From: Hydrogenophilales bacterium 16-64-40
Lineage (GTDB): Bacteria > Pseudomonadota > Gammaproteobacteria > Burkholderiales > Thiobacillaceae
NCBI GenBank assembly: GCA_002256995.1
Contig: NCGX01000018.1
Location: 1-64,000 of the forward strand
Reading direction: 5' to 3'
DNA: 64,000 nucleotides
The notes below the pieces were generated by a model. That model saw only the letters and a program-made list of their open reading frames with translations, was not told the DNA's origin and made no database searches. Positions 14,901 to 51,603 of this stretch are shown here, piece after piece (the stretch's first letter is position 1; each line of letters begins with the position of its first letter). The position numbers and the translations under genes are program-made.

Positions 14901-17824
14901 TCGCCGGCGGGTTCCACGTGCGCTGCTGCGTATTCGATGATGGCACCCACCTCGGCTGCGCACACCTCCGGAAGCTCCAGCGCTTCAGCTTGCGTATCGG
15001 TGGCCTCAGCGCTCTCGGCTGTCGCGGTGGCGATGTCCGCTTCGTCATCCGCCAGCGCATTCTGTGGCGTCTCGGCAACGCGCTGTGGCTGCCACTCGGA
15101 TTCCGCTTCGGCTGCCATCTCGACGTCCGGCTCGCTTGCGGCCACGGCCTCGGCTGCCACTTCGGCGTCTGCGGCCGGCGCGACATCGAGCGGTTGTCCC
15201 TGTGTCACACGATCAACCGCTGCCAGCAAATCGGAAACCGGCAACACCACCGGCTGGTTCGCCAGCAGCGCATCCACCCAATCCTGGAACACAGCACGGG
15301 CGCGTTCGACCAGGCGCAGCAGCTCGCTGCTGGCTGGCTTTTTCTCGGTCAGCCAGACGTTCATCAGCTGTTCGAAGCGCCACGCGGTTTCGCCCAGTTC
15401 TTCCAGGCCGACCATGCGGCCACTGCCCTTCAGCGTGTGAAAACCGCGGCGGATAATCGTCAGCGAAGCCTGATCGTCGGGATTGCTCTGGCAAGCATTG
15501 CAGGCCTCGCCCATGGCCACCAGCACTTCGTTGGCTTCTTCCAGGAAGATTTCCAGCAGCTCCTGCTCGACCCCTTCCGGGATCGCGGCCAGGAAGACCC
15601 CTTCGGCAGGCGCAGTCGTTTCCGCTGCGACCTGCTCGACTGGCTCGCTAGAGAGCACTGCTTCAACTGCGGCGACCGGCTGCGCGAATTCGACGATCGC
15701 GCCGGCTGCAGGCGCGTTGACCTCCGCAGGCATGACATCACCCGGTTCCGTCGCTGCCGCCGCCTCCACCAGGTCAACGCGCGAGCGGGCCGCTTCGTCG
15801 GCAACCGGCGCGTCCTCTTCCTGCGTCAGCCGGATTTCCGGGGTGGCCCGTTCGGGCAACGCCAGGCCGGTCATGGCCGCAATGTCGGCATCGAGCGCCA
15901 GCGGCGCCGCGGGCGCCTCCCGGCTGGCGTCGAGTGCGGCGCGGGTCTGCTGTTTCAGGAGGGCGTCGTCGATCAGTTCGGCGTCGCGGCCGAGCTCGGC
16001 GAGTGCATCAAGGTATTTTTTTTTTGTGGCGTCGTCGGGTTGATCGCGCCATTCCAGATAGCCTGCCTGCACCCCGGCCTTGCGGGCGGGCAGACCGGCT
16101 TCAACCGTGTCGTCAAACGCGTGTTCATCGATGCTGTCGGCGTCGATCACGCCAAACTCGATCAGTGCAGGGCGCAGCATGCTGGCGGCATCGGCACGCC
16201 CGGCGCAATAGGATTCGATGAACAGCCCGAGGCTGGAGAAAGCATTGGCCAGGCGTTGCTGGGTCGCTTCGTCCGGGTAGCCCTCACTGATGAACGATTG
16301 CGCCGTAGTGGTGGCGGCAGCCAGCAGGCTGGCGGCATCTGGCAGTTCCAGCATGGTCAGGGCGCCTTGCGCCTGCTGCGCCAGCACGGGCAGGTTGGCC
16401 AGCGCTTCACGTTCGTTGGCATCACGGAAGAAGGCATCCAGCGCCTCCTCCATCTGCTTCAGGTTCTGGCCAACCTCCAGTGCCATCTGCACCAGCATGT
16501 CACGCTCAGCCTCTCGCTGGCTGGCGGATTCCATGTCGCTGACCGGCATCTCGCGGCCTTCGATCAAGGCGCGCAGGCGTGCCTGCTGCGCTTTTGCACG
16601 GGCAGCGAAATCGGCGTGCAGCACGTCTTCCTGGTCCACGCCGCTCTGCATGAACAGCAGCGTGGCCGCGACTTCCAGGTTCACCTGTTCGCGCGCGTCG
16701 CCTTCGCGCCCGACAGCGGCCAGGGCCGCCGCCCCCAGCTCATCCAGCAGGGGCATCAGGCCACTGCTTTCGAGCATCTGCGCCTGCGGCTGCATGCGTA
16801 TCAACTGGGTCTGAAACTGTTCCTGCTGATCGGCATTGCCTTCCACCCAGGCATGCCAGTGATCGCGCGCGGCCTTCAGGCCGGATTGCAAGGCATCCAG
16901 CACCGGGCGCATGCGCGCCAGTGCTTCGGGGTCGAGCATGCCACGGCCCGGCAGATAACGATCGAGACCGAACCTCGAGCGGACTTCCGCGGCGCGGCCT
17001 TCCATGGCCTCGCTTTTCGCGACGAAGAATAGCGCATCGCGCAGCAGGCGTTCGGCGACCTGCGGCGAGCCTTCTATCAAGCGGCGCATTTGCAGGTCGA
17101 CGCGAGCAAGCAGCTGCTTGACGTGAAAATCAGCCTCGACGCCACGTGCGATCAGGCTGTCGACAAAACCGACACACGCCCACCAGAAGGTTTGCGAGGC
17201 TTGCGACGGTGCGATACGTTCGATTGCGGTCAGCGCATCACGCATGCGCTCCAGTCCCTGGTCCGCCTCGACATTGCGCAGAAAGGCCAGCAGGCCGCGC
17301 TGGAACAGGCTCCGCATTTTCTTGACTTCGGCGGCCAGCGCTTCCTGCGTCAGGCCATCGTTGTGGGTCTTGCCACGCGTCCGCAAACGCAGATCGGGGA
17401 AAAACAATTCACCTTCGAATATCCGTTCAGCGCCCTGCAATTCACGCAGACGCTTGTACAGGGGGAACAACGCCAGCTCGCCGCTGCCGCGTCCATCGGC
17501 CAGATCCTTGACCCAACGCTGCAGGCCTTCCATGGCATTGCGCAAGGCGCGCAAGACTTCATCGCTTGCCGTCAGCCGGTTTTCATTGATGTCGTCCAGG
17601 CTGGACTCAAGCGCGCCAGCCAGCGTGGCGGCGCCTTCCAGACCAACCATGCGCAATGCGCCGGTCACCTGGTGCGCATCGTCGCGCGCCAGACGCAGGG
17701 CATTGGTGAGGTCGACATCGACACTGTAGGCCTGAATGCGCCCCAAGGCGGCTTGCAGGGCGGCATCGATGTCGCCGCGCACCCAGTTCAACGGGCCGGT
17801 ATCGTAATCGAGTAAGGCGCTCAT
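11906..17824 (-). CDS. chpA: ChpA/PilL chemosensory hybrid histidine kinase
   Basis: This 1972-residue protein is the CheA-type kinase of the Pil-Chp twitching pathway. Several histidine phosphotransfer domains precede the kinase: a degenerate one near residue 50 (DAHQVTGALRMVG), HTLKGSGRMVG near 795, HTLGGIAGTAG near 1048 and HTIKGSARMVG near 1252. They are separated by Ala/Glu-rich linkers. Next come a dimerisation domain, a CheA ATPase (HLLRNALAHGIES, GVGMDVVKSEISALGG), a CheW-like domain, and a receiver whose phosphoacceptor lies in VVLLDVEMPRMDG near residue 1892. It is the last gene of pilG-pilH-pilI-pilJ-chpA. A run of ten A in the coding strand (16016-16025, three Lys codons) is unusual in this GC-rich gene and could promote slippage. 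Confidence 0.92.
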   Translation of the reverse strand: MSALLDYDTGPLNWVRGDIDAALQAALGRIQAYSVDVDLTNALRLARDDAHQVTGALRMVGLEGAATLAGALESSLDDINENRLTASDEVLRALRNAMEGLQRWVKDLADGRGSGELALFPLYKRLRELQGAERIFEGELFFPDLRLRTRGKTHNDGLTQEALAAEVKKMRSLFQRGLLAFLRNVEADQGLERMRDALTAIERIAPSQASQTFWWACVGFVDSLIARGVEADFHVKQLLARVDLQMRRLIEGSPQVAERLLRDALFFVAKSEAMEGRAAEVRSRFGLDRYLPGRGMLDPEALARMRPVLDALQSGLKAARDHWHAWVEGNADQQEQFQTQLIRMQPQAQMLESSGLMPLLDELGAAALAAVGREGDAREQVNLEVAATLLFMQSGVDQEDVLHADFAARAKAQQARLRALIEGREMPVSDMESASQREAERDMLVQMALEVGQNLKQMEEALDAFFRDANEREALANLPVLAQQAQGALTMLELPDAASLLAAATTTAQSFISEGYPDEATQQRLANAFSSLGLFIESYCAGRADAASMLRPALIEFGVIDADSIDEHAFDDTVEAGLPARKAGVQAGYLEWRDQPDDATKKKYLDALAELGRDAELIDDALLKQQTRAALDASREAPAAPLALDADIAAMTGLALPERATPEIRLTQEEDAPVADEAARSRVDLVEAAAATEPGDVMPAEVNAPAAGAIVEFAQPVAAVEAVLSSEPVEQVAAETTAPAEGVFLAAIPEGVEQELLEIFLEEANEVLVAMGEACNACQSNPDDQASLTIIRRGFHTLKGSGRMVGLEELGETAWRFEQLMNVWLTEKKPASSELLRLVERARAVFQDWVDALLANQPVVLPVSDLLAAVDRVTQGQPLDVAPAADAEVAAEAVAASEPDVEMAAEAESEWQPQRVAETPQNALADDEADIATATAESAEATDTQAEALELPEVCAAEVGAIIEYAAAHVEPAGEAPAAPAGLLNAEAEAPVESFAPDEICIGTVCLSTGLYDIFMVEAHQRLAVLQEEAQRHADVADSTVSEHARRAVHTLGGIAGTAGIAALCELSQALEQYWNRFVRVALPSAHLPLVQDTVARLHEMIETIAAGHLPDAASDLIAALGELEDEQVMPAAESVFALAAESEDEILAQADEANAETVVEAAPVAAARVSDATETRHASGLLDVDALVPDFKPAAPAPVFERREVADEIDQQLLPIFLEEADTLLPDTSAQLRAWKAAPGEAAARDVLRRNLHTIKGSARMVGAMRLGELTHVMESRVIAVIDGHLSASADVFETLEAQVDRLADAVDRLKLGDLAPVIEDTSAPLEAPIEPVLGQAEVAAAVAATTADPLEIAKAATRDSNALTLRVRADWVDRMVNQAGEVAIARSRIESEVFAFKRHVNELSEALARLRGHIREVEIQAESQMQATFQTHEGTDEFDPLEFDRFTRFQEVTRFLAESVNDISTVQHILLARLGEADAALIQQMRLNRELQQDLLRVRMVPLYSVAERLYRTVRQTARDVDKRAQLDIQGGELEIDRSVLEKVTAPLEHLLRNALAHGIESPEERRAAGKAEFGEIVLAARQSGNEMMLTVKDDGAGLNYARIREKAEASGLLLPGVEPTESLLAQMIFAAGFSTAETVSQVAGRGVGMDVVKSEISALGGRIDITSTPGAGTCFNIYLPLTLAMTQAVMFQAAKHDYALPTPLIRQVLELKPIELEQAMAAGEVVWRGAHYPFSYLPHLLGDTDAVHEVQRYNPVVLLASGASQAAVLVDVIEGTREIVVKNIGPQVARITGVAGATVRGDGRVILILNPVPLALRWASLPRTAAERTAPAEAAEVSAALQPPLVLVVDDSLTVRKITTRLLTREGFRVDSAKDGVDALERMHDLIPDVVLLDVEMPRMDGFELARVMRNDERLKLVPIIMITSRTADKHRNHALEIGVNVYLGKPYQEQQLLDSIAAQLEQKAAVPA

Positions 17825-17894
17825 GGTGTGTTGTTCCCGAGGTTGATTGCAGTAGCCGTGAGCGGCTGCTTGCTTCGCGCTGTGGCCAGTTTGA

Positions 17895-39672: not shown

Positions 39673-41073
39673 ATGCACCTCCACATCCTCGGCATCTGCG
39701 GCACCTTCATGGGCGGACTCGCCGCCATTGCCCGCAACGCGGGCCACACCGTCACCGGTTGCGACGCCAACGTCTACCCGCCGATGTCCGACCAGTTGCG
39801 CGCCCTCGGCATCGAACTGACCGAGGGTTGGGACGCCAGCCAGGCCAACATCGGCGCCGACATTTTCGTCGTCGGCAACGTCGTCACCCGCGGCAACCCG
39901 CTGATGGAAGCCATCCTCGAGCGCGGCCTGCCCTACACGTCCGGCCCGCAGTGGCTGGCCGACAACGTGCTGCGGGACAAATGGGTATTGGCGGTGGCCG
40001 GCACCCACGGCAAGACCACCACTGCTGCCATGCTGGCGTGGATTCTCGACGATGCGCGCATGCGCCCCGGTTTTTTGATCGGCGGCATCCCGCAGAACTT
40101 CGGCCTGTCCGCACGCCTCACCGACAGTCCCTTCTTCGTCATCGAGGCCGACGAATACGACACCGCCTTCTTCGACAAGCGCTCCAAGTTCGTCCACTAC
40201 CGCCCGCGCAGCGTCATCCTCAACAACCTCGAATACGACCACGCCGACATCTTCCCCGACCTCGCCGCCATCGAAACCCAATTCCATCACCTGGTGCGAA
40301 CCGTTCCCGGAAACGGCCTCATCGTCGCCAATGGCACCGACACCAACCTCGACCACGTATTCGAGCGCGGCCTGTGGACCCCGGTCGAGCGCTTCGGCGG
40401 CTTGAGCGGCTGGACCGCTGGCGACGTCGATCCGAACGGCCACTTCGATGTTTTCTTCGACGGCGCATTGCAGGGTCGCGTGACGTGGACGCTGATGGGT
40501 GGGCACAACCGCATGAACGCCCTCGCCTCGATTGCCGCCGCGCGTCACGCCGGCGTGCCCGCCGCGGTCGCGATCGATGCCCTGGCTCGCTTCGAAAACG
40601 TCAAGCGCCGCATGGAAATCCGCGGCGCCGTCCACGACATCACCGTCTACGACGACTTCGCCCACCATCCCACCGCAATCACCACCACCGTCGAAGGCCT
40701 GCGGGCGAAAGTCGGGAAAGCGCGCATCCTCGCCGTGCTGGAGCCGCGCTCCAACACCATGAAACTCGGCGTCATGAAAGCCGCGCTGCCCGTGAGCCTC
40801 GCCGGCGCCGACCTCGTCTACTGCTATGGCGCCAACCTCGGCTGGGATGCCGCCGAGGCGCTGGCTCCGCTGGGCGATAAGGCGCGCGTGTTCGACGATC
40901 TCGACAAACTGGTCAGCCAACTCGTCAAAGACACCCGCTCCGGCGACCACGTGCTGATGATGAGCAACGGGGGGTTTGGGGGAATTCACGCCAAGCTGCT
41001 GGATGCGCTGCATCATCACTATCACGAGGATATTGTGCTGACGCCGATGCATCGGTATGGGGGGTATGCGTAA
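39673..41073 (+). CDS. mpl: UDP-N-acetylmuramate:L-alanyl-gamma-D-glutamyl-meso-diaminopimelate ligase Mpl
   Basis: This 466-residue Mur-ligase family enzyme recycles murein tripeptide onto UDP-MurNAc. Motifs are HILGICGTFMGGLAAIARNAGH (N-terminal Rossmann domain), VAGTHGKTTTAAMLAW (ATP site), FVIEADEYDTAFFDKRSKF, LNNLEYDHADIF, MGGHNRMNALASIAAA, YDDFAHHPTAI and VLEPRSNTMKLG. Length and the CGTFMGG opening set Mpl apart from MurC. It is followed by the structured repeat region. Confidence 0.94.
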   Translation: MHLHILGICGTFMGGLAAIARNAGHTVTGCDANVYPPMSDQLRALGIELTEGWDASQANIGADIFVVGNVVTRGNPLMEAILERGLPYTSGPQWLADNVLRDKWVLAVAGTHGKTTTAAMLAWILDDARMRPGFLIGGIPQNFGLSARLTDSPFFVIEADEYDTAFFDKRSKFVHYRPRSVILNNLEYDHADIFPDLAAIETQFHHLVRTVPGNGLIVANGTDTNLDHVFERGLWTPVERFGGLSGWTAGDVDPNGHFDVFFDGALQGRVTWTLMGGHNRMNALASIAAARHAGVPAAVAIDALARFENVKRRMEIRGAVHDITVYDDFAHHPTAITTTVEGLRAKVGKARILAVLEPRSNTMKLGVMKAALPVSLAGADLVYCYGANLGWDAAEALAPLGDKARVFDDLDKLVSQLVKDTRSGDHVLMMSNGGFGGIHAKLLDALHHHYHEDIVLTPMHRYGGYA

Positions 41074-41083
41074 GGGGGAACGC

Positions 41084-41427
41084 CGTCATTGCGAGGCGTG
41101 CAGCGACGAAGCAATCCAGTCTGTGATTAGGCGCGAAGCATGACCGAGTAGTTAGCGCTTTCGCAGGACTGCTGACCGTTGGCCGGGGGTAGCCCGGCGG
41201 CTAGTTACTTTTCTTGTCTCGCCAAGAAAAGTAACCAAATGAAGGCGACCCCGACATCCCCGAATTCCCGGAAATCGAGCCTGCCGGACGGGCGGCGAAG
41301 AACTCGCCCTGCCTTGCTGTTTTTAATTTGGTTTTTTGTGGGCGGGGCTCAAATACCTTCGCCGCTGATCCGCCCGGCAGGCTCGATTTCCGGCGGGTCT
41401 GTGAGGGGATGAAAGTCAAAACCAGGG
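41084..41427 (+). repeat. Structured intergenic repeat, copy A
   Basis: From the outside in: CGTCATTGCGAGG...AGCAATCC, a GCGAAG segment, the GCCGGGGGTAGCCCGGC hairpin, GTTACTTTTCTTG/CAAGAAAAGTAAC hairpin, and a long stem with arms GAAATCGAGCCTGCCGG. The conserved GGCGGCGAAGAACTCGCC and GGCGGGGCTCAAATACC parts flank the stem loop. The copy ends at AAAACCAGGG near 41427. It matches copy B (42813-43147) in inverted orientation and copy C (51281-51547) in inverted orientation. Stem arms differ from copies B and C at about seven of 22 positions, with matching changes on the opposite arm. Confidence 0.85.
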
Positions 41428-41467
41428 CGGCAATGACTGCCGAGACATTATTTTTGTGGGCGATCAA

Positions 41468-42742
41468 ATGACATCAACACATAAAGCCTTAAAGGAAATC
41501 GTGCGAACTGTCCGTCGTTATCGAGAAATAATTCTTGGGGGACTACTGCGCATCGTTACCGTTTTCGCTGGCATTGCGATGTTTCTTGCACTAACACACT
41601 ACCTTCCAATCGATGTGCCGCTATCGGATCTAGAGAGTTCTATCCAGTTGTTATCGCAGATTCTTGCGATGGTGGTCGGTGTCTTGTTGATCGGAACAAC
41701 TGTTAGCCTAAATTCTTATGAAGGATCTGCAACCATAAATTCAATTCAGATTGAAATTGATAAGGCAATCACCCCACTATTAGACCGGCTCTTTTCAGGG
41801 GGTCGCCGAGCACACAAGATCACCCGCCGCTCATTCCTCAACTCTGCGCTAAGTCGCCCCGCTATTGAAGAACTACAGTTCTTCAATCCGGACGCACAGC
41901 CAGATGGTCAATGGTTTATATATCGCCCAAACTGGGATGGCGTTTGGTACCAAGTTTTCAATTCACCTTTCGTCAATTCATCAGTGACAGAGGAGCGATC
42001 TCACCAAGTTCAGGCAGTTCACGAGGCTGCCATTTGCGCCTACACCGTGCTCAAATCCATAGCAGATTTTCAGCAGTCTAATTGCGCGCTATTAACAAAG
42101 ATACACGGAACCAATGGCTCTCGCGGCTTTCTAGAGCGATTTGCGAAGCACGTGAGCAATAACGGGATAAGCCTTCCTTCCAAGGCAACTCTTGCCCACG
42201 TGAAGTCAGTAATTGCCTTGGCTATAGAGTCTCAACACTATATGAGAGAAGAGTTTGTTGAGCATTCTGAAAACGTGGCTTGGGAACCGCATGTACTTAC
42301 AAAGTTCCAGCTTGGATTCAGTGAATACGTTGTTTCGATGATTCACTTTGTTTTCAAGCTACAGATGCTTCGCTTAGCCAATGTAGATCAACGTTGCCCC
42401 GGCGTAACCGAACGTTTCGAAAGCAAAACGAAAAAGAAACTATTCCTGAAAGAGCTTAACGAGGTACAGGAAGAACTAACGGCAATTAAGAAAAAAATCG
42501 TATCAGCGCACGGAGCAGCAAGTTACTTCCACTCTATTAAAAAAATGTCTGCACTCGGCGTCGGCATAGCGTTGGTCGTACTAATTGCGTTATTGGCCGG
42601 ATGGCCATTTCTGAAATACACGACAGATGCATCCATACGGATTCTCGGCTTTGCAACGCTTTACGCCACCGGGATCGCTGCTCTCGTAGAAAGCTCATGG
42701 TTCCTCGGCCGCCTTCTTTGGAAGCGCCGTGCGGCTAGCTAA
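41468..42742 (+). CDS. Four-helix membrane protein of unknown function (AT-rich cargo gene)
   Basis: This 424-residue protein has two N-terminal transmembrane helices (about 19-41 and 62-82), a central cytoplasmic region of about 280 residues, and two C-terminal helices (ALGVGIALVVLIALLAGWPF and GFATLYATGIAALVESSWFLG). The central region has an aromatic patch (WFIYRPNWDGVWYQVF) and a coiled-coil-prone stretch before helix 3 (KKKLFLKELNEVQEELTAIKKK). No family is recognised. Its codon use is clearly AT-richer than all neighbours and it sits exactly between inverted repeat copies A and B, suggesting horizontal acquisition. A GTG four codons upstream is an alternative start; neither has a strong ribosome site. 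Confidence 0.72.
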   Translation: MTSTHKALKEIVRTVRRYREIILGGLLRIVTVFAGIAMFLALTHYLPIDVPLSDLESSIQLLSQILAMVVGVLLIGTTVSLNSYEGSATINSIQIEIDKAITPLLDRLFSGGRRAHKITRRSFLNSALSRPAIEELQFFNPDAQPDGQWFIYRPNWDGVWYQVFNSPFVNSSVTEERSHQVQAVHEAAICAYTVLKSIADFQQSNCALLTKIHGTNGSRGFLERFAKHVSNNGISLPSKATLAHVKSVIALAIESQHYMREEFVEHSENVAWEPHVLTKFQLGFSEYVVSMIHFVFKLQMLRLANVDQRCPGVTERFESKTKKKLFLKELNEVQEELTAIKKKIVSAHGAASYFHSIKKMSALGVGIALVVLIALLAGWPFLKYTTDASIRILGFATLYATGIAALVESSWFLGRLLWKRRAAS

Positions 42743-42812
42743 CATAAGGCGCTGAACATTGCACCGAATCTGCGTCTCAACACAAGCACTCAAACGGCCC
42801 CGTCAGCACCAT

Positions 42813-43147
42813 CCCTGGTTTTGACTTTCTTCCCCTTACAGACCCGCCGAAGATCAAGTGCGTCGGGTGGATCAGCGGCAAAGGTGTCTGAGCCCCGCTC
42901 ACAAATTAATTAACACTACAAAAGCGGGGCGAGTTCTTTGCCGCCCACCCGACGCGCTTGATCTTCGGGAATTCGGGGATGTTGGGGGCGCCTTCTTTTG
43001 GTTACTTTTCTTGGCGAGACAAGAAAAGTAACTAGCCGCCGGGCTACCCCCGGCCAACGGTCAGCCGCCCCGCGAAGTCACTAACTATTCAGTCGCACTT
43101 CGCGCCAACCCTCAAACTTGGATTACTTCGCTGCGCTCGCAATGACG
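42813..43147 (-). repeat. Structured intergenic repeat, copy B (inverted relative to A)
   Basis: The reverse complement follows copy A from the CGTCATTGCGAGC...GTAATCC end through AGTTAG, CTGACCGTTGGCCGGGGGTAG and the AGTTACTTTTCTTG hairpin to the long stem and AAAACCAGGG. Its long-stem arms are GAAGATCAAGCGCGTCGGGTGG and the complementary CCACCCGACGCACTTGATCTTC, with one G-U-type mismatch. With copy A it brackets the 41468-42742 gene, leaving only about 40-70 bases between gene and repeat on each side. Confidence 0.85.
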
Positions 43148-43175
43148 GACAAGGCCGGTCGCAGCGAACCGCGAA

Positions 43176-43619
43176 TCAATACATCTTGTACGGCAAAAAC
43201 TTCCCATTCAACACAATCTTCACCCGATCCCCCTTCGGGTCCTCCACCCGCGAAATATCCATCGAAAAATCGATCGCGCTCATGATCCCATCGCCGAACT
43301 CCTCGTGGATCAGCGACTTGATGGTGATGCCATACACCATGATCAGCTCATAGAAGCGGTAGATCAGCGGGTCGGTCGGAACGGCGGAAGGCAGGCTGCC
43401 CTTGTACGGCACCATCTGCAACTGGTCGACGGCTTCGGCCGGCAGGCCGAGCATCTTGCCGACGGTGGTGGCCTGCTTCTTGTCGAGCGTCATTTGCCCC
43501 AGCAGTGCGGCGGTCGTCCATTCCTTGCTCTGGCCGACTTTCCTTGCGATGTCGGCCCACTTGAGGCCCTTCTTGTGTTTGGCGGCGAGGATGAGGTCGG
43601 TGACTTCGGTGCGGGTCAT
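43176..43619 (-). CDS. cynS: Cyanate hydratase (cyanase) CynS
   Basis: This 147-residue decameric enzyme converts cyanate and bicarbonate to ammonia and carbon dioxide. Catalytic residues of the family are Arg88 and Glu91 in YRFYELIMVYG and Ser114 in GIMSAIDFSMD. The N-terminal helical domain reads LILAAKHKKGLKWADIARKVGQSKEW. The gene follows the ABC transporter genes with a 12-base gap, so uptake and breakdown of cyanate are co-transcribed. In thiocyanate-using sulfur oxidisers cyanate arises from thiocyanate; that link is inference here. Confidence 0.95.
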   Translation of the reverse strand: MTRTEVTDLILAAKHKKGLKWADIARKVGQSKEWTTAALLGQMTLDKKQATTVGKMLGLPAEAVDQLQMVPYKGSLPSAVPTDPLIYRFYELIMVYGITIKSLIHEEFGDGIMSAIDFSMDISRVEDPKGDRVKIVLNGKFLPYKMY

Positions 43620-43631
43620 GATGTTTGGTCC

Positions 43632-44585
43632 TTAAGCGTTGACGAGGTGGATGTGGGGTTTGCCGACGGGCGGCGCGGGAACAACATTCAGCTCGGGCTG
43701 TGTTGATTCAAAAGACTCGAGCAGATCGGCCGGATCGAACACAGTGGGTGAGCTGGTGGCGTCGGGCGCGTCGCGCAGGGCGCCGAACTGCTTCGACCGA
43801 CTGACCAGGAAATCGACCAGGTGGTTGCGGATCGGGTAGTAGTGCGGCTGCTTGTGGATGGCGCTGCGCTCGCGCGGACGCGGCAGGGTGTTGTTGACGA
43901 TCTCGGCGATGCGCGCATGCGGGCCGTTCGACATCAGCATGATCTTGTCGGACAGGAGGATGGCTTCGTCGACGTCGTGGGTGATCATGAACACGGTCTG
44001 CTGCGTCTCGGCGCAGATCTTCAACAGTTCTTCCTGGATAACGCCGCGCGTCAGCGCGTCGAGCGCACCGAAAGGCTCGTCCATCAGGAGCATCTTCGGC
44101 TCGATGGAAAAGGCGCGCGCGATGCCGACGCGCTGCTTCATGCCGCCCGACAATTGCGACGGCTTCTTGTGCTCGGCACCTTTCAGGCCGACCAGCTCGA
44201 TGTAGCGCATGGCGTGGTCGCACACTTTCTGTTTGTTCCAGCGCGGCCAGCGCGACTTCACCGCAAAGGACACGTTCTCCAGCACGGTGAGCCAGGGCAT
44301 CAGCGCGTGGCTCTGGAAGATCACGCCGCGGTCGAGACTGGGGCCCGCGACTTCGCGGCCGTCCATGAACACGTTGCCGGTGCTGGCGGCGTCAAGGCCG
44401 GCGAGGATGTTGAGGATGGTCGACTTGCCGCAACCGGAGTGGCCGGTGACGGCGACGAATTCGCCCTTGTGGATGCGGAAGTTGACGTGATCGAACACGG
44501 TGACGTCATCCCCCCCGGTGGGGCTGGGGTAGATGCGTGCCAGGTTTTCGACCTGCAGGAAGGGATGCGAGAGGGGAGAAGTCAT
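43632..44585 (-). CDS. cynD: Cyanate/nitrate-type ABC transporter ATPase
   Basis: This 317-residue ATPase of the NrtD/CynD/SsuB group has Walker [10 protein letters not shown], signature [15 protein letters not shown], Walker [13 protein letters not shown] and switch [10 protein letters not shown]. An extra C-terminal tail of about 40 residues ([17 protein letters not shown]) has no recognised domain. Adjacent cynS makes cyanate the best substrate guess, but nitrate or a related anion cannot be excluded from sequence. Confidence 0.87.
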
Positions 44586-44589
44586 GGTT

Positions 44590-45441
44590 TCACTCCTGGT
44601 AAGCGACGCGCTTGCTCAGCACGCCGAAGACACTGTCGAGCGCCATGCCGACGACGCCGATCATGAGGATGGCGAACAGCACGTTGGTGAGCGACAGGTT
44701 GTTCCATTCGTTCCACACGAAGTAGCCGATGCCGGTGCCGCCGACCAGCATTTCGGCGGCGACGATGACCAGCCAGGCGATGCCCATGGAAATACGCATG
44801 CCGGCCAGGATCGTCGGCGCGGCGGCGGGCAGGATGACGCGGAACGCCTTCCGTAGCGGATTGACCTCCAGCGTACGCGAGACGTCGAGCCAGTCGTGCC
44901 GCACGTTGGCGACGCCGTGCGCGGTGTTGATCAGCATCGGCCACAGCGAGCAGATGAAGATGACGAAGATCGACGAGGCCGACGCATCCTTGATGGTGTA
45001 GAGCGCGAGCGGCATCCACGCCAGCGGCGAGATCGGTTTCAGCACCTGCACATAGGGGTCGACTGCCTGATAGATCACCCGCGAGTTGCCGATGACAAAG
45101 CCGAGCGGAATCGCCACCATCGCAGCGAGGAAAAAGCCGCCCAGCACGCGCACCAGCGAATAGGCGAGCTGGATGCCGATGCCCTTGTCGTTCGGACCAT
45201 TGTCGTAGAACGGGTCCGACAGCTTGTCCCACAGCGTCTGCCCCATTGCCGCCGGGGTGGGGAAACTCGACGCCGCCGTGGCGCCGCCGCCGCCCATCAG
45301 CGCGGCGTATTCGGGGTCGACGCCCGCCGCGACGGTGTCGGCTTGCGGCAGCGTCGCCAGCTGCCAGACCAGCAGGATCACCCCGAACAACACCAGCGAC
45401 AGCAGGGTGGACTTTTGGTTGAGCGAGAGTCGCGTTTTCAT
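44590..45441 (-). CDS. cynB: Cyanate/nitrate-type ABC transporter permease
   Basis: This 283-residue permease of the NrtB/SsuC family has an N-terminal transmembrane helix, a periplasmic insert of about 60 residues rich in Gly and Ala ([20 protein letters not shown]), then the permease core with coupling loop [20 protein letters not shown] and [22 protein letters not shown]. The ATG overlaps the cynA stop by four bases. It forms the membrane channel with cynD. Confidence 0.87.
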
Positions 45442-46796
45442 GAGCGTTTGATGGCGAAGGAGTTGAGGTATTCGGCAGGCTTCGCGGGGTCGAACACCTT
45501 GCCCATGATGGTGTGCTTGGTGTAGCTGTTCGCCGGCGCCTTCAGCCCGATTTCGGCCATGCGCGCCCGCGCGTCGGTGGCGCGGAACACTTCCTCGGCG
45601 ACCGCCTTGTAGTTGATGTCGCCCTTGATGTAGTTCCAGCGCTTCAGCTGGGTCAGGATCCACACCGCCATCGACTGCCAGGGGAAGGGATCGAAGTCGA
45701 CACGATCCGGCACGTTCCGCACCTTGCCGAGGCCGTCGGCGAAGCGCCCGGTCATCACCTGTTCCAGCACCGGGATCGGCTGGTTCAGATAGTTTGCCGG
45801 AGCGATCGCCTCGATGATCTCCTTGCGGTTCTCCGGCTTGTGCGCGTAGTCGGTGGCGCTGGCGATCGCGCGGAACAACGCGGCGTAGGTATTGGGAAAC
45901 TCCTTGTAGAAGCCTTCCTTCACGCCGAAGGCGCAGCAGGGATGACCGTCCCACAGATCACGCGACAGGGTGTGGATAAAGGCGAAGCCCTCGTACACCG
46001 CGCGCTGGTTGAACGGCTCGGGGCCGAGGAAGCCGTCGATGTTGCCGGCGCGCAGGTTGGCCACCATGTCGGGCGGCGGCATCATGCGCAGCTCGACATC
46101 CTTGTCGGGATCGACGCCGTGCTCGGCGAGGAAGTAGCGCAACAGCAGGTTGTGGATCGAGTAGTCGAACGGCAGGCCGAACTTCATCCCCTTCCAGTCC
46201 TTGGGGTTCATCTTGTCCTTGTGCTTCAGGTGCATGGTGATGGCCTGGCCGTTGATGTTCTGGATCGTCGCCACGTCGACGGCCTGCTTGGCCGATCCCA
46301 GCCCGAGCGACATCGCCAGCGGCATCGGCGACAGCAAATGCGAGGCGTCGTATTCCTTGTTCTGCACCTTGTCGCGCACCACCGCCCAGCCGGCGGTTTT
46401 CTGCAGGCTGACGTTCAGGCCTTCGCGCGCATAGAACCCCATTGGACCCGCCATGATGATGGGCGTGGCGCAGGTGATCGGGACGAAGCCGATCTTGAGG
46501 TCGGTCTTTTCAAGTTTGCCGCGTTCCGCCGCCAGCGCCTTCGCCGCGCCCATCGGGAACAGCGTCGAGATCGCCGCCATCGCCGTGCCGGCACCCACCG
46601 CGCGCAGGAAATTGCGGCGCATCTGGTCGTTGGGAAAGAGCCCGCGCATCACCGCCGACTCGACCACACGCGACACGCGCGCATCCTCGTTCGTCATGGC
46701 GGCATCGTGGTCGGCCTGGCTGTGGTGGCGACCGCAGCTGCAGCCTGCACGGTGCAGTTTGGAATCGGGGTCAAACGGATTATCAAAGCCGGACAT
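45438..46796 (-). CDS. cynA: Cyanate/nitrate-type ABC transporter binding protein (Tat-exported)
   Basis: This 452-residue NrtA/CynA-type protein has a long hydrophilic N-terminal extension (about 65 residues, with CSCGRHHSQ), then a Tat-like signal (RRNFLRAVGAGTAMAAIS) and a binding domain: LKIGFVPITCATPIIMAGPMGFYAREGL, SHLLSPMPLAMSLG, GLPFDYSIHNLLLRYFL and DGFLGPEPFNQRAVYEG. The start at 46796 has GGGAG upstream; open frame beyond it to 47018 lacks family similarity. The CxC-His cluster in the extension is unusual and might bind metal. It heads the minus-strand cynA-B-D-S operon. Confidence 0.87.
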   Translation of the reverse strand: MSGFDNPFDPDSKLHRAGCSCGRHHSQADHDAAMTNEDARVSRVVESAVMRGLFPNDQMRRNFLRAVGAGTAMAAISTLFPMGAAKALAAERGKLEKTDLKIGFVPITCATPIIMAGPMGFYAREGLNVSLQKTAGWAVVRDKVQNKEYDASHLLSPMPLAMSLGLGSAKQAVDVATIQNINGQAITMHLKHKDKMNPKDWKGMKFGLPFDYSIHNLLLRYFLAEHGVDPDKDVELRMMPPPDMVANLRAGNIDGFLGPEPFNQRAVYEGFAFIHTLSRDLWDGHPCCAFGVKEGFYKEFPNTYAALFRAIASATDYAHKPENRKEIIEAIAPANYLNQPIPVLEQVMTGRFADGLGKVRNVPDRVDFDPFPWQSMAVWILTQLKRWNYIKGDINYKAVAEEVFRATDARARMAEIGLKAPANSYTKHTIMGKVFDPAKPAEYLNSFAIKRS

Positions 46797-46982
46797 AAGG
46801 CGCTCCCATCGGGTTGAAAAAAATTCCTCACACGAACGCATGCACCAATTTCTGCATGCTCGCCCCGGTCTGGTGCATTTCATCCGTTCCGGTTTGCTGC
46901 GTGGCCTGCCGTTCAATTGCCCGGTTCGACGGGCTTTGGAGACAGAGGCCCTGCATTGCGTCGTGTTTCCACTCAAGCGGTA

Positions 46983-46999
46983 TTCAGGAAACGTGCCAG
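46983..46999 (-). promoter_or_regulatory. Candidate sigma54 promoter of the cyn operon
   Basis: The minus strand reads TGGCACGTTTCCTGAAT. The -24 part TGGCACG is perfect; the -12 part is CTGA instead of TTGC. It lies about 190 bases before cynA. The 46797-47124 gap also contains the divergent activator's leader and the palindrome at 47099. Confidence 0.45.
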
Positions 47000-47072
47000 C
47001 TCGCTTGAAATATGACAAGCCATTGTTTTAAATGGACGATTTTTAGGAAACCCGGGGAACGTGCTGAATTGC

Positions 47073-47087
47073 TGGCCCGATTCTTGA
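47073..47087 (+). promoter_or_regulatory. Candidate sigma54-like promoter of the activator gene
   Basis: TGGCCCGATTCTTGA resembles TGGCAC-N5-TTGC with two mismatches, 38 bases before the activator start. Weak on its own. Confidence 0.35.
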
Positions 47088-47098
47088 TTACACAGTGT

Positions 47099-47111
47099 TG
47101 ACAATTTGTTT
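47099..47111. promoter_or_regulatory. Candidate activator-binding palindrome (cyn side)
   Basis: TGACAATTTGTTT matches the perfect palindrome at 48704-48716 at 11 of 13 positions. It is about 105 bases upstream of the divergent cyn promoter candidate, a normal enhancer distance. Confidence 0.5.
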
Positions 47112-47124
47112 CGGAGAACCCGCC

Positions 47125-48696
47125 ATGACTGCTATTGCACTGCCTGCCGAACGCCTGCAAGACGAGGAAATGCTGGTGATCCGCGAGTCAGCGCGCCTGA
47201 TGGGAAAAAGCCTGGAGCCCGGCCCGGTGATTCGCGAAATGCTGCACCTGATCTCGGAATTTCTCGGGCTCAACCGCGGGCGGGTGGTGCTGCGGCAGCC
47301 CGGCGGCAGCGACTTTGCGATCCGCCATGCCTACGGGCTGACGACGGACGAAATCGAGCGCGGGGTCTACCGGCCCGGCGACGGCGTCACCGGCCGCGTG
47401 CTGCAAAGCGGCGAGACGGCGATCGTGCAGGACATCGACGACGACCCGCATTACCTCGCCCGCGCGGTCGATCGCGGCCGCCTGCCGAACGAGACGGTGA
47501 GCTTCATCGCGCTGCCGCTGCGGAGCGATGGCGAAGTGCTGGGCCTCCTGGGGGTGCATCGGATTCGCGGCCGCGCGCGGGCCTTGGCCGACGACCTGCG
47601 CCTGCTTGAAATCATCGCCACGCTGATTACCCAGGTCCTGAAGTTGAACGAGCACGTGGCGAAACAGACCGCGCGGCTGGAACACGAAAACCGCGAGCTC
47701 AAATGGGCGCTCGAGCGCGGCGCGCCGCAACAGGCCACACTCGGCATCGTCGGCGAATCGCCCGCGCTGCGCCATGCACTGCGCCAGATCGAGCAGGTCG
47801 CACCGACCGAGGCGACGGTGCTGCTGCTGGGCGAGTCGGGCACCGGCAAGGAACTGTTCGCGCGCGCGCTGCACCTGTCGAGCCCGCGCCGCGACCAGGC
47901 TTTCGTCAAGGTGAACTGCGGGGCCATTCCGGAAAACCTGTTCGAGTCGGAATTGTTCGGCTACGAGAAAGGCGCGTTCACCGGCGCCTCGACCGCGCGC
48001 GCCGGCTATTTCGAGCAGGCCGGCGGCGGCACGCTGTTCCTAGACGAAATCGGCGAGCTGCCGCTGGCGATGCAGGTAAAGCTGCTGCGGGTGCTGCAGG
48101 AAAAAACCCTGCAGCGCGTCGGCGGCCACCGCGAAACGCCGATCGACGTGCGCATCGTCGCCGCCACCAACCTCGACCTGCAGCAGCAGGTCGCCGCCGG
48201 CCGCTTCCGCCTCGACCTGTATTACCGCCTCAACATTATTCCGATCCGCCTGCCGGCGCTGCGCGAGCGGCGCGAGGACATTCGCCCGCTGGTACGCCAC
48301 CAGCTCAACCTCATCAGCCAGAGCTACCAGCGCAACGTCGGGCTGACCCCGGACGCGATGGAGCGACTAGCCGACTACCCGTGGCCGGGCAACATCCGCC
48401 AGCTGCACAACGTGCTGGAGCGCCTGGTGCTGCTGGCCGAAGGCGCGACGGTGTCCGCGCGCGAGGTGGAACACGTCATTCGCAGCGAAGCGACGGGCAC
48501 GCCCGCAGCGGCACCGCCGCTTGACAACGCCCCCGCCACGGCGGTGCGCCCCTATCTGCCGGCGCAATCGCACGACCGCCGGCAGATCGAGCAGGCGCTG
48601 GCGCAGACCCACGGCAACAAGTCGCGTGCGGCACAGGTGCTGGGCCTGACCCTGCGCCAGCTGAACTACCGCATCAAGCGCCTCGCCATGGCCTGA
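47125..48696 (+). CDS. Sigma54-dependent transcriptional activator (NifA/NorR type)
   Basis: This 523-residue enhancer-binding protein has an N-terminal GAF domain at about 35-185 ([42 protein letters not shown]), a coiled-coil linker, and an AAA+ domain at about 215-445 with Walker A GESGTGKE, the sigma54 contact loop FEKGAFTGA-like [16 protein letters not shown], Walker [14 protein letters not shown] and R-finger region. A Fis-type helix-turn-helix closes it ([33 protein letters not shown]). GAF domains of this class sense small molecules such as 2-oxoglutarate, NO or anions; here the ligand is unknown. It is divergent from cynABDS and upstream of the OsmC operon, both with -24/-12-like promoters, so it likely controls both. 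Confidence 0.87.
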
Positions 48697-48703
48697 CAAT
48701 GGT

Positions 48704-48716
48704 TAACAATTTGTTA
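48704..48716. promoter_or_regulatory. Perfect palindrome, candidate activator-binding site (OsmC side)
   Basis: TAACAA-T-TTGTTA lies about 85 bases before the sigma54 promoter at 48793, the usual enhancer distance, and resembles the site at 47099-47111. Confidence 0.55.
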
Positions 48717-48790
48717 GCGCGCAAAGGGGACTGAATAGAGCCATCGGACAATATTCACTTAAGGATCAATGGCTTGACATTGACTGACCG

Positions 48791-48807
48791 AGCTGGCACG
48801 GGAATCG
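48791..48807 (+). promoter_or_regulatory. Sigma54 promoter of the OsmC operon
   Basis: CTGGCACGGGAATCGCA keeps GG at -24 and GC at -12 with correct 10-base spacing and a perfect TGGCACG. It lies about 50 bases before the OsmC start. Confidence 0.75.
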
Positions 48808-48856
48808 CAATACAGAGCATATCGGTTTCCGATCAACCCACCAAAGGAGTCATCCC

Positions 48857-49399
48857 ATGTCCGAAGTCGTTGCCCTGAAAACCCCAACCGTGCTCGAGCC
48901 CATCGATGCCGACGGCCTCGCGGCCCTCGCCACCAAGGGCCGCGCCAATCCGCAGTCGGTCGTCACGCTGAAAGCGAAGACCGTATGCGAAAGCAAGTTC
49001 CGCAACCTCACCTACGTGCGCAACCTCGACGCGCACGTGATCGACGAGCCGCCGCACCTGCTCGGCGACGACACCGCGCCGAATCCATCCGAGGCCGTGC
49101 TCGCCACGCTCGGCTCCTGCCTGTCGGTCGGGCTGCACGCCAACGCGGTGGCGCGCGGCATCACGCTGACAAGGCTCGAACTCGAACTCGAAGGCGACAT
49201 CAATGTCACCGCCGTGTGGGGTGTAGGCGACCTCGACCCGCTGAAGAAGCTGGGCTTCACCGACGTGCGCGTGAAGGTGCATCTGGAAGGCGACGCCAGC
49301 GAGGAAGAACTGAGGGACCTGGTCGCGCATTCCAACGCCTGGTCGCCGGTCGCCAACACGCTGCGCAACCCGGTCAACGTCAGCGTCGAACTCGGCTGA
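48857..49399 (+). CDS. OsmC-family protein
   Basis: This 180-residue protein belongs to the OsmC/Ohr fold. The peroxidatic-type Cys lies in LATLGSCLSVGLHANAVARGI. The second catalytic Cys of true organic hydroperoxide reductases is absent: the equivalent segment reads HSNAWSPVANTLRNPV. An additional Cys near the N-terminus (KTVCESKF) might substitute. Such SPV-type OsmC proteins often occur beside sulfur or redox genes, and their reaction is unsettled. First gene of a four-gene operon with a sigma54 promoter; AAAGGAG precedes the ATG. Confidence 0.85.
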   Translation: MSEVVALKTPTVLEPIDADGLAALATKGRANPQSVVTLKAKTVCESKFRNLTYVRNLDAHVIDEPPHLLGDDTAPNPSEAVLATLGSCLSVGLHANAVARGITLTRLELELEGDINVTAVWGVGDLDPLKKLGFTDVRVKVHLEGDASEEELRDLVAHSNAWSPVANTLRNPVNVSVELG

Positions 49400-49428
49400 C
49401 CCGTCTGGTCTTTATTTTGGAGCGCATC

Positions 49429-50586
49429 ATGCCTGCAACCGCACTTGCGAACACGCCCGCTGAAATCCTGCCGGGCCTGGCCGAACTCATCGCCGCCGAA
49501 CTCGCGCCCAAGGTGGTCGACATCGACCTCAAGGGCGTCTACCCGGGCGATTTTCTCAAACAGCTCGGCGCGCTCGGCGGGCTGGGCAGCCTGACGCCGG
49601 TCGAGCACGGCGGCACCGCGCTGGGCCTCGGCCACGCCATCCAGTTGATCGAGGAAGCGTCGAAGGAATGCGTCTCCACCGGCTTCCTGCTGTGGGCGGA
49701 ATACGCATTGCAGTGGTACGTGATCAACAGTTCCAACGTCGCGCTCGCCGCCGAGATGCTACCGAAAATGGCGCGCGGCGAAGTGCTCGGCGGCACCGCG
49801 CAGTCGAACAGCATGAAGTCCTGCGTCGGCATCGAGGAAGCGCGCCTGAAGGCCCAGCGGGTGGACGGCGGTTACCGCATCAACGGCGTGCTGCCGTGGG
49901 TGTCGAATATCGGCCTTGATCACTATTTCCACATGGGGGCCACGCTGCCCGACACGCCCGGCCTGGTGATCGGCCTGGTGCACGGCAGCACGCCCGGACT
50001 CACGCTGACGCAGAACGCGCACTTCATCGGCATGGAAGGTACCAACACCTTCGCCTGCCAGTTCCGCGACGTGTTTCTCACCGACAGCCGGGTGGTCTGC
50101 CATGCGGATGAATTCAGCGCCTTCCGCGACCGCACCAAGTCTGCCTTCATCCTGCTGCAGATGGGAATGGGGCTCGGCCTGGTGGACGCTTGCGTGGCGA
50201 TGATGAGGCGCGCCGACAAGCAGTTCGGCCACGTCAACCGTTTCCTCGACGTGCAGGCCGACGCGCTGGAGGCCGAACTCGACGCCGCGCGTGCCGCCAC
50301 CTACGCGCTGGCAGCCAAGATCGAACGCGACGGCAGCGCCCCGCATGTGAAGGAAACCCTGCAAGTGCGGCTCGCCGGCAGCGAATTGAGTCTCAAGGCC
50401 GCCAACGCCGCGATGATGCACATGGGCGCCAAGGGCTATCTGTCGAACAATGCCGCGCAGCGCCGCCTGCGCGAGGCCTACTTCATCGCCATCGTCACCC
50501 CGGCGATCAAGCACCTGCGCAAGGAACTCCACGAGTTCGACACCGCCGCCTGTGTACTGGCCCAGCCTGAGCTGGAGGTCGTATGA
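49429..50586 (+). CDS. Acyl-CoA dehydrogenase-like flavoprotein
   Basis: This 385-residue protein has the acyl-CoA dehydrogenase fold: LGSLTPVEHGGTALGLGHAIQLIEEAS (N-terminal helical part), GGTAQSNSMKSCVGIEEARLKAQRVDGGYRINGVLPWVSNI (beta domain), GMEGTNTFACQFRDVFL and a C-terminal four-helix domain. The usual catalytic Glu context is not evident. Relatives such as SfnB and DszC act on sulfur compounds or as flavin oxygenases. With rubredoxin and OsmC as neighbours, a flavin-dependent redox step on a small sulfur or nitrogen compound is plausible but unproven. Stop overlaps the next start (ATGA). Confidence 0.8.
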   Translation: MPATALANTPAEILPGLAELIAAELAPKVVDIDLKGVYPGDFLKQLGALGGLGSLTPVEHGGTALGLGHAIQLIEEASKECVSTGFLLWAEYALQWYVINSSNVALAAEMLPKMARGEVLGGTAQSNSMKSCVGIEEARLKAQRVDGGYRINGVLPWVSNIGLDHYFHMGATLPDTPGLVIGLVHGSTPGLTLTQNAHFIGMEGTNTFACQFRDVFLTDSRVVCHADEFSAFRDRTKSAFILLQMGMGLGLVDACVAMMRRADKQFGHVNRFLDVQADALEAELDAARAATYALAAKIERDGSAPHVKETLQVRLAGSELSLKAANAAMMHMGAKGYLSNNAAQRRLREAYFIAIVTPAIKHLRKELHEFDTAACVLAQPELEVV

Positions 50587-50972
50587 TCCGCTTCGCGGTC
50601 TCCCTTTCCGTGGACGAAGCGGCCGACAAGCTGATCGCCGCCATCGCGGCCTACCCGATGGGCCTGGTCGCCCACGCCAACGGCCAAGCCAACTGCGCCA
50701 AGAAGGGCATCACGGTGCCGGCCGACCAGGTGCTCGAGGTGTTCCGTCCCGACTACGCCGTCAAGGTGTGGGCGGCGGAGAAAGCGGCCGGCATCGATAT
50801 TCCGCTGCGCATCCATCTCTACGAAGCCGACGGCACGACGTGGATTGCCTACCGCCCCGCCACCGAAATATTCAAACCCTACGTCAACCCGCAGCTCGAT
50901 GTGCTGGGCAGCGAGCTGGACGCCATTTTCAACCAATTGCTGGCCACGTTCGATCCGTGGAAATTGCCATGA
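50583..50972 (+). CDS. Cytoplasmic DUF302 protein lacking cysteines
   Basis: This 129-residue protein is a lone DUF302 domain without a signal peptide: FAVSLSVDEAADKLIAAIAAYPMGLVAHANGQANCAKKGI, VLEVFRPDYAVKVWAAEKAAGIDIPLRIHLYEADGTTWIAYRPATEIF and a C-terminal amphipathic helix. The FC and PCRI cysteines of other copies are Arg/Pro and Leu here (VFRPD, IPLRI). It is coupled to both neighbours by ATGA overlaps, so a cytoplasmic role beside the flavoprotein and rubredoxin is likely. Function unknown. Confidence 0.8.
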   Translation: MIRFAVSLSVDEAADKLIAAIAAYPMGLVAHANGQANCAKKGITVPADQVLEVFRPDYAVKVWAAEKAAGIDIPLRIHLYEADGTTWIAYRPATEIFKPYVNPQLDVLGSELDAIFNQLLATFDPWKLP

Positions 50973-51181
50973 TAAATCTCGCTACTACTATCTCTACCCC
51001 CGAATCCGCCCCCGCCTTCCGCAAATGGACCTGCGCCGTCTGCGACTACGTCTACAACGAAGCGCTCGGTGACCCCGATCACGGGCTGGCCCCTGGCACC
51101 CGCTATGAAGCCATCCCCGACGACTGGAGCTGTCCCGACTGCGGCGTGATCAAGACGGACTTCTACTGCTTCGACGACTGA
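50969..51181 (+). CDS. Rubredoxin (second copy)
   Basis: This 70-residue protein has an N-terminal extension of about 18 residues before the rubredoxin domain. Iron ligands lie in WTCAVCDYVYNEALGDPDHG and WSCPDCGVIKTDFYCF; an additional Cys near the C-terminus (YCFDD) is unusual. It is the last gene of the OsmC operon and probably the electron carrier for the flavoprotein encoded two genes upstream. Confidence 0.92.
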   Translation: MINLATTISTPESAPAFRKWTCAVCDYVYNEALGDPDHGLAPGTRYEAIPDDWSCPDCGVIKTDFYCFDD

Positions 51182-51280
51182 CTCGCGTAAGACGTGCTGG
51201 GCAGGCCGTCAATCCGCGTGGCCGCATTGCGCTGAATATGCGGCGCATCACTGCATACGGACCGCCCCGTTATCGCTAAC

Positions 51281-51547
51281 CTGGTTTTGGCTTTCTTCCC
51301 CTTACAGGCCCGCCGAAGATCAAGCGCGTCGGGTGGATCAGCGGCAAAGGTGTTTGAGCCCCGCCCACAAAAAACAAAATCAAAACAACCAAGGCGGGGC
51401 GAGTTCTTTGCCGCCCACCCGACGCGCTTGATCTTCGGGAATTCGGGACTGTCGGGGTCGCCTTTTCTTTGGTTACTTTCTTTTGGCGAAGCAAAAGAAA
51501 GTAACTTGCCGCCGGGCAACCCCCGGCCAACGCTCAGCAGTCCTGTG
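51281..51547 (-). repeat. Structured intergenic repeat, copy C
   Basis: Same order of hairpins as copies A and B: long stem with arms GAAGATCAAGCGCGTCGGGTGG, then GTTACTTTCTTTTG/CAAAAGAAAGTAAC and the GCCGGGGG.TGCCCGGC hairpin. The outer CGTCATTGCGAG part is missing. The second hairpin differs from A and B (TTTCTTTTG versus TTTTCTTG) with matching changes in both arms. The rest of the 51182-51603 gap holds no gene. Confidence 0.85.
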
Positions 51548-51603
51548 AAAAACTGGCCATTGCCAAATTTCAGGAATCCCACCCGCCCCGGTAAAATCCG
51601 GGA

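Follow-up and report, generated by a model that had tools for sequence, protein, structure and literature searches.

The window analysed here, a stretch of 64,000 nucleotides of Hydrogenophilales bacterium 16-64-40 (contig NCGX01000018.1), contains three copies of a hairpin-bearing repeat of 270-400 bp that, in Thiobacillus, occurs mainly as inward-facing pairs at constant chromosomal sites. The arms of these pairs are kept between species while their centres differ, the genes lying between them have a composition foreign to their surroundings, and the arms carry a structure preserved on one strand. We consider it rather probable, although far from certain, that the repeats are the arms of an exchangeable gene slot, the centre of which would be swapped by homologous recombination, and that each arm would work as an RNA structure. 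If this is true, Thiobacillus maintains a limited number of chromosomal slots where accessory genes, including some of known anti-phage families, are parked between RNA-like hairpins. The space between the arms would then show where unknown accessory genes are to be sought, and the repeat would offer a candidate for a new structured RNA as well as a model of how repeats of the repetitive extragenic palindromic (REP) type could aid gene turnover without a linked recombinase.

A genome search found the three copies where a preliminary description of the window had placed them: copy A at 41084-41427 on the forward strand, and copies B (42813-43147) and C (51280-51550) on the reverse strand, 81% and 84% identical to A, respectively. 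That description rightly treated them as one repeat family with an identical order of hairpins, but the orientation has to be amended, since A is inverted with respect to the other two copies and faces B. A and B form a single inverted pair, their inner ends (GTCAAAACCAGG) pointing at each other and enclosing one open reading frame (ORF) of 428 aa at 41456-42742 on the forward strand (424 aa from the ATG at 41468; GC 0.469 vs 0.639 in the flanks), and C is a solitary copy 8 kb away. The arms of the long stem are complementary overall, as had been claimed, except that in B the arm GAAGATCAAGTGCGTCGG pairs through G-U on one strand only, a feature that later became informative on strand preference. 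The arms of the second hairpin, said to change together, do so in C (GTTACTTTCTTTTG) but are identical between A and B (GTTACTTTTCTTG), and the block GGCGGGGCTCAAA, taken to be constant, reads AGCGGGGCTCAGA in B. Repeats with the AAGAAAGTAAC hairpin may, as that description has it, be widespread in proteobacteria.

The window pair lies beside mpl (39673-41073, forward strand; TIGR01081, 4e-214), which is the left neighbour and is kept next to the slot in other Thiobacillus. Among 45 mpl loci, 17 hold a full pair, 7 a partial copy (some cut by the contig end) and 21 none (some ending soon after the gene); every genome compared is a different species, many are drafts that break at repeats, and some mpl loci end less than 500 bp from the gene. 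The 13 mpl-site pairs with an ORF represent 10 families, four of the pairs sharing one protein (81-84% identical) and the other nine carrying ORFs that are unrelated at E 1e-3. Fillings differ even between genomes with both neighbours in common: between mpl and a yqiA-like gene there can be a short spacer, 349 bp without an ORF, the shared protein of 177 aa or an RraB protein; between mpl and cyanate hydratase, the 428-aa ORF of the window, a TIR protein, a 238-aa ORF or the shared protein; and between mpl and a LysR-like gene (named by eye), a weakly trypsin-like ORF of 238 aa, an AbiU2 protein, the shared protein, a 249-aa ORF, one doubtful ORF or, again, a short spacer. Between genomes G024 and G065, identity is 89 and 90% for the arms and 88 and 83% for the flanks, crosswise comparison of the arms gives 81%, and the cargos are unrelated; since the arms are as alike as the flanks, the centre appears to have been replaced while the arms stayed. 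Inversion of the cargo was considered and rejected, as the cargos at mpl all run with that gene (14/14, with locus L305 placed via its right neighbour only), and at the other sites directions are mixed. By eye, neither a target-site duplication nor a clean virgin site was seen at mpl; G061 and G075 were tried as empty alleles and dismissed because pieces of the outer repeats remain in both, and the orthologous loci L298 and L300, compared in search of an empty site, are interrupted by a run of N.

Beyond mpl, and counting as a pair two copies within 2.5 kb, 60 close pairs were left after removal of duplicates, 59 of them inward-facing (including L295, from another genus) and one direct, although this is not an unbiased count because several of the fetched regions had been picked by eye for holding, or possibly holding, pairs. 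Loci fetched by sequence pattern and not selected for pairing were therefore counted separately, since many others had been fetched for having pairs; here 18/18 close pairs among the matches listed face inward, three of them with one partial copy. At least 49 of 116 stretches with the exact core pattern contain the repeat by blastn. Comparison of the flanks by tblastx assigned 56 of the 59 inward pairs to nine chromosomal sites, with neighbours named from profile matches (some under the curated cut-offs): mpl; a thioredoxin reductase; trpD-trpC; one site without a named neighbour; S-methyl-5'-thioinosine phosphorylase/purT; glyQ; aminotransferase/rpoS; a diguanylate cyclase-phosphodiesterase type protein/tldD; and one two-member site. 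Agreement on both flanks was found for 12 pairs at mpl, which show two arrangements, and for 6, 5, 5, 4, 3, 3 and 2 pairs at the sites labelled B, C, D, E, F, G and H; two loci, L045 and L059, combine the flanks of two sites. The centre is a spacer of 68-191 bp in 15 pairs, similar across sites with the exceptions of L181 and L043, and is longer in 44, of which 39 contain an ORF of at least 80 aa; the remaining five were excluded from the cargo counts.

These 39 cargo ORFs fall into about 35 families by blastp, and in all 39 the GC content is under that of the flanks (means 0.470 vs 0.636). A Pfam scan of 36 of them, which left out three homologues of the L106 cargo, gave matches above cut-off for 11 (HEPN_AbiU2 and RraB twice each, CAP12/Pycsar TIR, P63C, DUF2971, DUF3592, RDD, SHOCT and GNAT) and none for 25, and no transposase family was matched among the 36. 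The cargos of anti-phage type are the two AbiU2 HEPN proteins and the CAP12/Pycsar TIR protein (L185:6768-7457, L305:2620-3588 and L249:2359-3171). Among 20 proteins submitted to PADLOC, the TIR protein was recognised as PDC-S35 at 4e-75 and three further matches were weak; the AbiU2 protein of L185 had no PADLOC match. The PHROGs comparison, run on 10 proteins, gave four matches no worse than 2e-33 and a further one at 9e-10; a slot cargo on contig C64 of the window genome (L031:2437-3087) has its PHROGs relative at 1e-54 and weakly matches a phage NAD-dependent DNA ligase. In 399 genomes of the order, the 428-aa cargo of the window turned up in none but its own; it was absent from the plasmid and viral collections searched and matches no family above cut-off. 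The cargos of L309 and L186 may not be real genes.

The ends of the cargos are polarised. On the 5' side a block of type 2 adjoins the cargo in 25 elements and one of type 1 in three, on the 3' side type 1 in 28 and type 2 in five, and the rest have neither (Fisher, 4e-9); because the motifs were derived from the same elements, this polarity is descriptive rather than predictive. In the window, the type-1 inner end (GCGTCTCAACACAAGCAC...) lies on the 3' side of the cargo at 42772-42812 (forward strand). The inner ends are trimmed to varying lengths, chiefly on the 5' side. Outside the arms, further inverted layers can be recognised by eye in some elements, TTCGCCCTGAGC...GTCGAAGGGC in some and CGTCATTGCGAG...GCAATCCAG outermost in some, the latter resembling by eye the CGTC-tagged REPs (PMC3733652). 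The window carries this outermost repeat at 41084-41119 on the forward strand, and stretches of 35-36 bp resembling it occur elsewhere in the genome as short separate matches to positions 1-36 of the query. A second repeat, TTCGCCCTGAGCTTGTCGAAGGGC, is present in the outer flanks of mpl-site elements L035, L037, L068, L253 and L254, in many of them inverted from side to side, and slots of this kind look like nested inverted repeats.

The structure of the arms is supported by folding and by covariation. Folded as single strands and compared with 200 dinucleotide shuffles each, arm B has a z score of -11.2 and arm A of -9.6. An RNAalifold consensus with 41 base pairs was obtained from alignment A2, which runs from inner to outer end and comprises 50 copies chosen by us (49 of 92 references plus copy C, copies with N or large gaps being left out), and from which the search model R1 was built; 98.7% of the paired cells are standard. 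Covariation, the check that the preliminary description had named, is seen as two-sided changes in 22/41 pairs (138 cells), beyond both kinds of control: shuffled alignments average 10.0 two-sided pairs and 39.7 cells, with 0/500 reaching the observed values, and slid controls give 3-6 pairs. Thus, columns 14-123 are occupied by GC 32, AU 13 and GU 3 and columns 18-119 by CG 36 and GC 13, and two copies, both from one genome, carry GTTCTTC in place of GCCCCGC over much of the inner stem, the partner bases having changed to match. Outside the genus, both in further genera of the family and in a different family of the order, the stems are wholly different yet still largely paired, and the motif UGUYUGAG...CGAGUU is kept; the internal loop may consist of tandem G-A pairs. 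The long hairpin, delimited by R1 match and covariation, spans 41250-41396 on the reverse strand in arm A, the left slot arm, which lies outer to inner on the forward strand, and 42844-42986 on the forward strand in arm B, the right slot arm; the structured strand is the reverse one in A and the forward one in B. The second hairpin of arm A (GTTACTTTTCTTG...CAAGAAAAGTAAC), found as a self-complementary match, occupies 41204-41235 on the reverse strand. Rfam 15 has no match at gathering score in the window, and only weak ones (E 0.37 or worse) in 40950-43250.

Read from the cargo outward, the pair cells are Watson-Crick in 1849 cases, G-U in 173 (123 excluding one invariant G-U pair), A-C in 6 and other in 21, and the opposite strand would exchange the G-U and A-C counts. 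Mutation bias does not explain the surplus of G-U, because C>T changes, 5 as against 15 of G>A, are not in excess in the unpaired columns on the same strand. A second alignment of 136 copies, partly the same members, has 790 G-U, 94 A-C and 295 other cells. That G-U lies far above A-C in the absence of a C>T excess argues for selection on a one-strand structure over mere joint conversion of the arms, and favours the view that the arm hairpin is selected as a single-stranded RNA-like or strand-specific single-stranded DNA structure, read from the cargo outward. The preliminary description had proposed either a structured RNA or a DNA hairpin of a mobility system: the structure is borne out, and mobility survives in an altered form, in which the cargo between copies at fixed sites turns over.

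In the slot reading that we favour, the centre would be replaced by homologous recombination with imported DNA, for which arms and neighbouring genes would supply the homology. As the hairpins read outward at both ends, one of them would fall in the 3' untranslated part of the parked gene in either orientation, where the arm, as an RNA structure, would end or protect the cargo transcript and insulate the neighbours; this is the role of the hairpin that we favour from the sequence. ComEC is present in 46/56 genomes of the genus, which permits DNA uptake, but it is common in bacteria. Several observations weigh against this interpretation. Our comparison is between species, exchange between strains not having been seen, and with one genome per species a gradual gain and loss would leave the same picture. 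No cargo is common to two sites at E 1e-3 by blastp, although the arms are alike everywhere; a candidate case of exchange between sites amounted to a distant RraB pair (26% identity, E 0.01) and two AbiU2 proteins at different places or species, and was rejected. The idea that arms evolve by site or by side was set aside too, arm identity being 0.829 at the same site and 0.846 in the same genome against 0.809 elsewhere, a small margin that likewise speaks against the slot. Related sequences are counted repeatedly in the covariation analysis, and the controls leave some of this relatedness in. Finally, polarised cargo ends are not expected from plain recombination; together with the gene-less centres, they make the question of exchange directly testable.

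The systems closest to the slots among those already described include the minimal mobile elements (MMEs) of Neisseria, reportedly introduced by Saunders and Snyder in 2002. MMEs are regions between two conserved genes in which different whole-gene cassettes are found, incorporated solely by homologous recombination, according to one account (PMC3898611). As in that account, the cassettes here are chromosomal and without a recombinase, and different whole-gene cassettes are found between two conserved genes, between species rather than strains. MMEs as described there lack dedicated shared ends, whereas one inverted structured repeat is common to all the slots, their centres without genes are in part related, and their cargo ends are polarised; moreover, MMEs are defined there between strains and by homologous recombination alone, and for the slots exchange by recombination is what we infer. 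Our analysis suggests that the slot is most likely similar to neisserial MMEs but with dedicated structured ends, and that recombination is its most likely exchange route.

Other machineries could nevertheless operate on such ends. It is unlikely, but deserves to be kept in mind, that the pairs form an undescribed gene-capture platform in which outward-reading hairpins mark fixed docks and a dedicated machinery, recognising the hairpin in the form of RNA or of a folded single strand, moves polarised single-gene cassettes into and out of the centre; this would be integron-like, without attC sites or a linked integrase, and spread across a genus. Integron cassettes are single, AT-rich and mostly unknown ORFs with polarised ends, some of anti-phage families, and they are mobilised by integrases of family TIGR02249. 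The slot cargos are likewise single AT-rich and mostly unknown ORFs with polarised ends, but they are enclosed by a pair of inverted arms, and the sites are many, with a single cassette in each. We find it quite improbable that the inner ends are where an unlinked recombinase, be it an integron integrase or another, exchanges single-gene cassettes of fixed polarity. An integron integrase is found above cut-off in 38/56 genomes, but 18, including that of the window, have none; and while the polarity of the end blocks (type 2 on the 5' side, 25 vs 3; type 1 on the 3' side, 28 vs 5) would suit a site-specific system, the varying, chiefly 5', trimming of the inner ends would not. An integron origin was rejected since, although integrases are common in the genus, the attC-like repeats (GCCTAAC...GTTAGGC) of an integron locus are by eye unlike the slot ends. 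The slots also have no linked integrase. The two attC-like repeats in question are located at L268:16821-16896 and 17785-17860; a weak R1 match (29 bits, E 8e-5) lies in another integron locus, L274.

A transposon-based reading, fairly unlikely in our judgement, would treat the elements as one non-autonomous family bounded by long terminal inverted repeats. An HUH transposase (Y1, of RAYT or TIRYT type) acting in trans would mobilise them by recognising the hairpins in single-stranded DNA, and the sites would be insertion hot spots. The inverted ends, the hairpins, the fact that G-T is tolerated in single-stranded DNA also, and the REP-like outer and inner layers would agree with this; however, the sites are conserved on both sides and no transposase family appears among the cargos (36/39 scanned). 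Y1_Tnp matches occur in 40/56 genomes, but 15 of the 16 genomes without one still hold 2-19 hairpin copies, and R1 has no match in the 8 Y1_Tnp loci examined out of many more; on these two grounds a requirement for RAYT was rejected. Mobile insertion cassettes have inverted repeats around passenger DNA without a transposase. Tn3-derived inverted-repeat miniature elements (TIMEs; PMC4133298) are reportedly also transposase-less inverted repeats flanking passenger DNA. The slots differ from both in their conserved sites, their strand-specific structured hairpin and the absence of any target duplication seen. REP, REPIN, RAYT and TIRYT elements are hairpin repeats in inverted dimers, and TIRtrons are RAYT-like genes between long inverted repeats (PMC3733652). 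The outermost and some inner layers of the slots resemble by eye the CGTC- and GTAG-tagged REPs, but the arm, with its 270-400 bp and long covarying hairpin, surrounds cargo genes and has no RAYT beside it in the 8 loci mentioned. The least probable alternative, in our opinion a doubtful one, is that there is no slot function at all, the repeat being an ordinary interspersed palindrome used as a transcript end and the genes having landed independently in tolerant intergenic places. Short-centre pairs with related centres at several sites, the short spacers of the pairs seen in two other genera and 15 copies that had room inside but no mate (counted in overlapping loci) are in line with it, but it leaves aside the ORF between both arms in 39/44 long centres, the shared polarised end blocks adjoining unrelated ORFs, and the many refillings of one site.

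A search with copy A gave a match in 35/36 genomes of the same genus, and R1 matches 53/56 genomes of the genus and 8/300 of the order (2 Thiobacillus, 3 of other genera of the family, 3 of other families). The core pattern is present in at least 6/369 genomes of the class, a floor because it is blind to long-loop copies and fails to detect even the window genome. G285 and G098, which belong to other genera, also have short-spacer inverted pairs, the second copies being recognised by eye; in G285, loci L295 and L296 have the element beside pyrG-like and dnaB-like ORFs (named by eye). A plasmid or phage vector was considered and rejected: copy B has one partial match of 22% to a Variovorax plasmid and no match to phages. 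The core pattern occurs in three viral contigs, of which L324 alone has an R1 match, cut by the extreme contig edge; it starts inside the long hairpin (positions 1-85), is adjoined by phage-tail-like and methylase-like ORFs (by eye), and is perhaps a prophage beside a slot. The literature covered, partial and with most subscription journals outside it, contained no description of this element.

Within the window genome, which is probably that of a Thiobacillus, further pairs are found on contigs C64 and C26 and a solitary copy on C17. The right neighbour of the window slot is a cyanate hydratase gene (43176-43619, reverse strand; Cyanate_lyase, 1e-36), and the 8 kb between arms B and C (43148-51280) also hold an ABC transporter and other genes. 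Arm C (51280-51560, reverse strand; structured strand forward, R1 match at 51310-51456) directly precedes a UPF0227 (yqiA-like) gene, and in G011, G013, G030 and G035 the mpl element is directly followed by the yqiA-like gene. The simplest reading of these sequences would be that copy C is an old right arm and that the 8 kb were inserted between B and C later. A third, partial arm in direct orientation also stands beside a pair at L062:3319-3479, an arrangement that resembles B and C. A terminator scan found 6 terminator-like sites where 2.7 were expected; one of them, a hairpin followed by a T-rich tail at 42927-42946 (reverse strand), is situated inside the long hairpin of arm B and reads into the slot.

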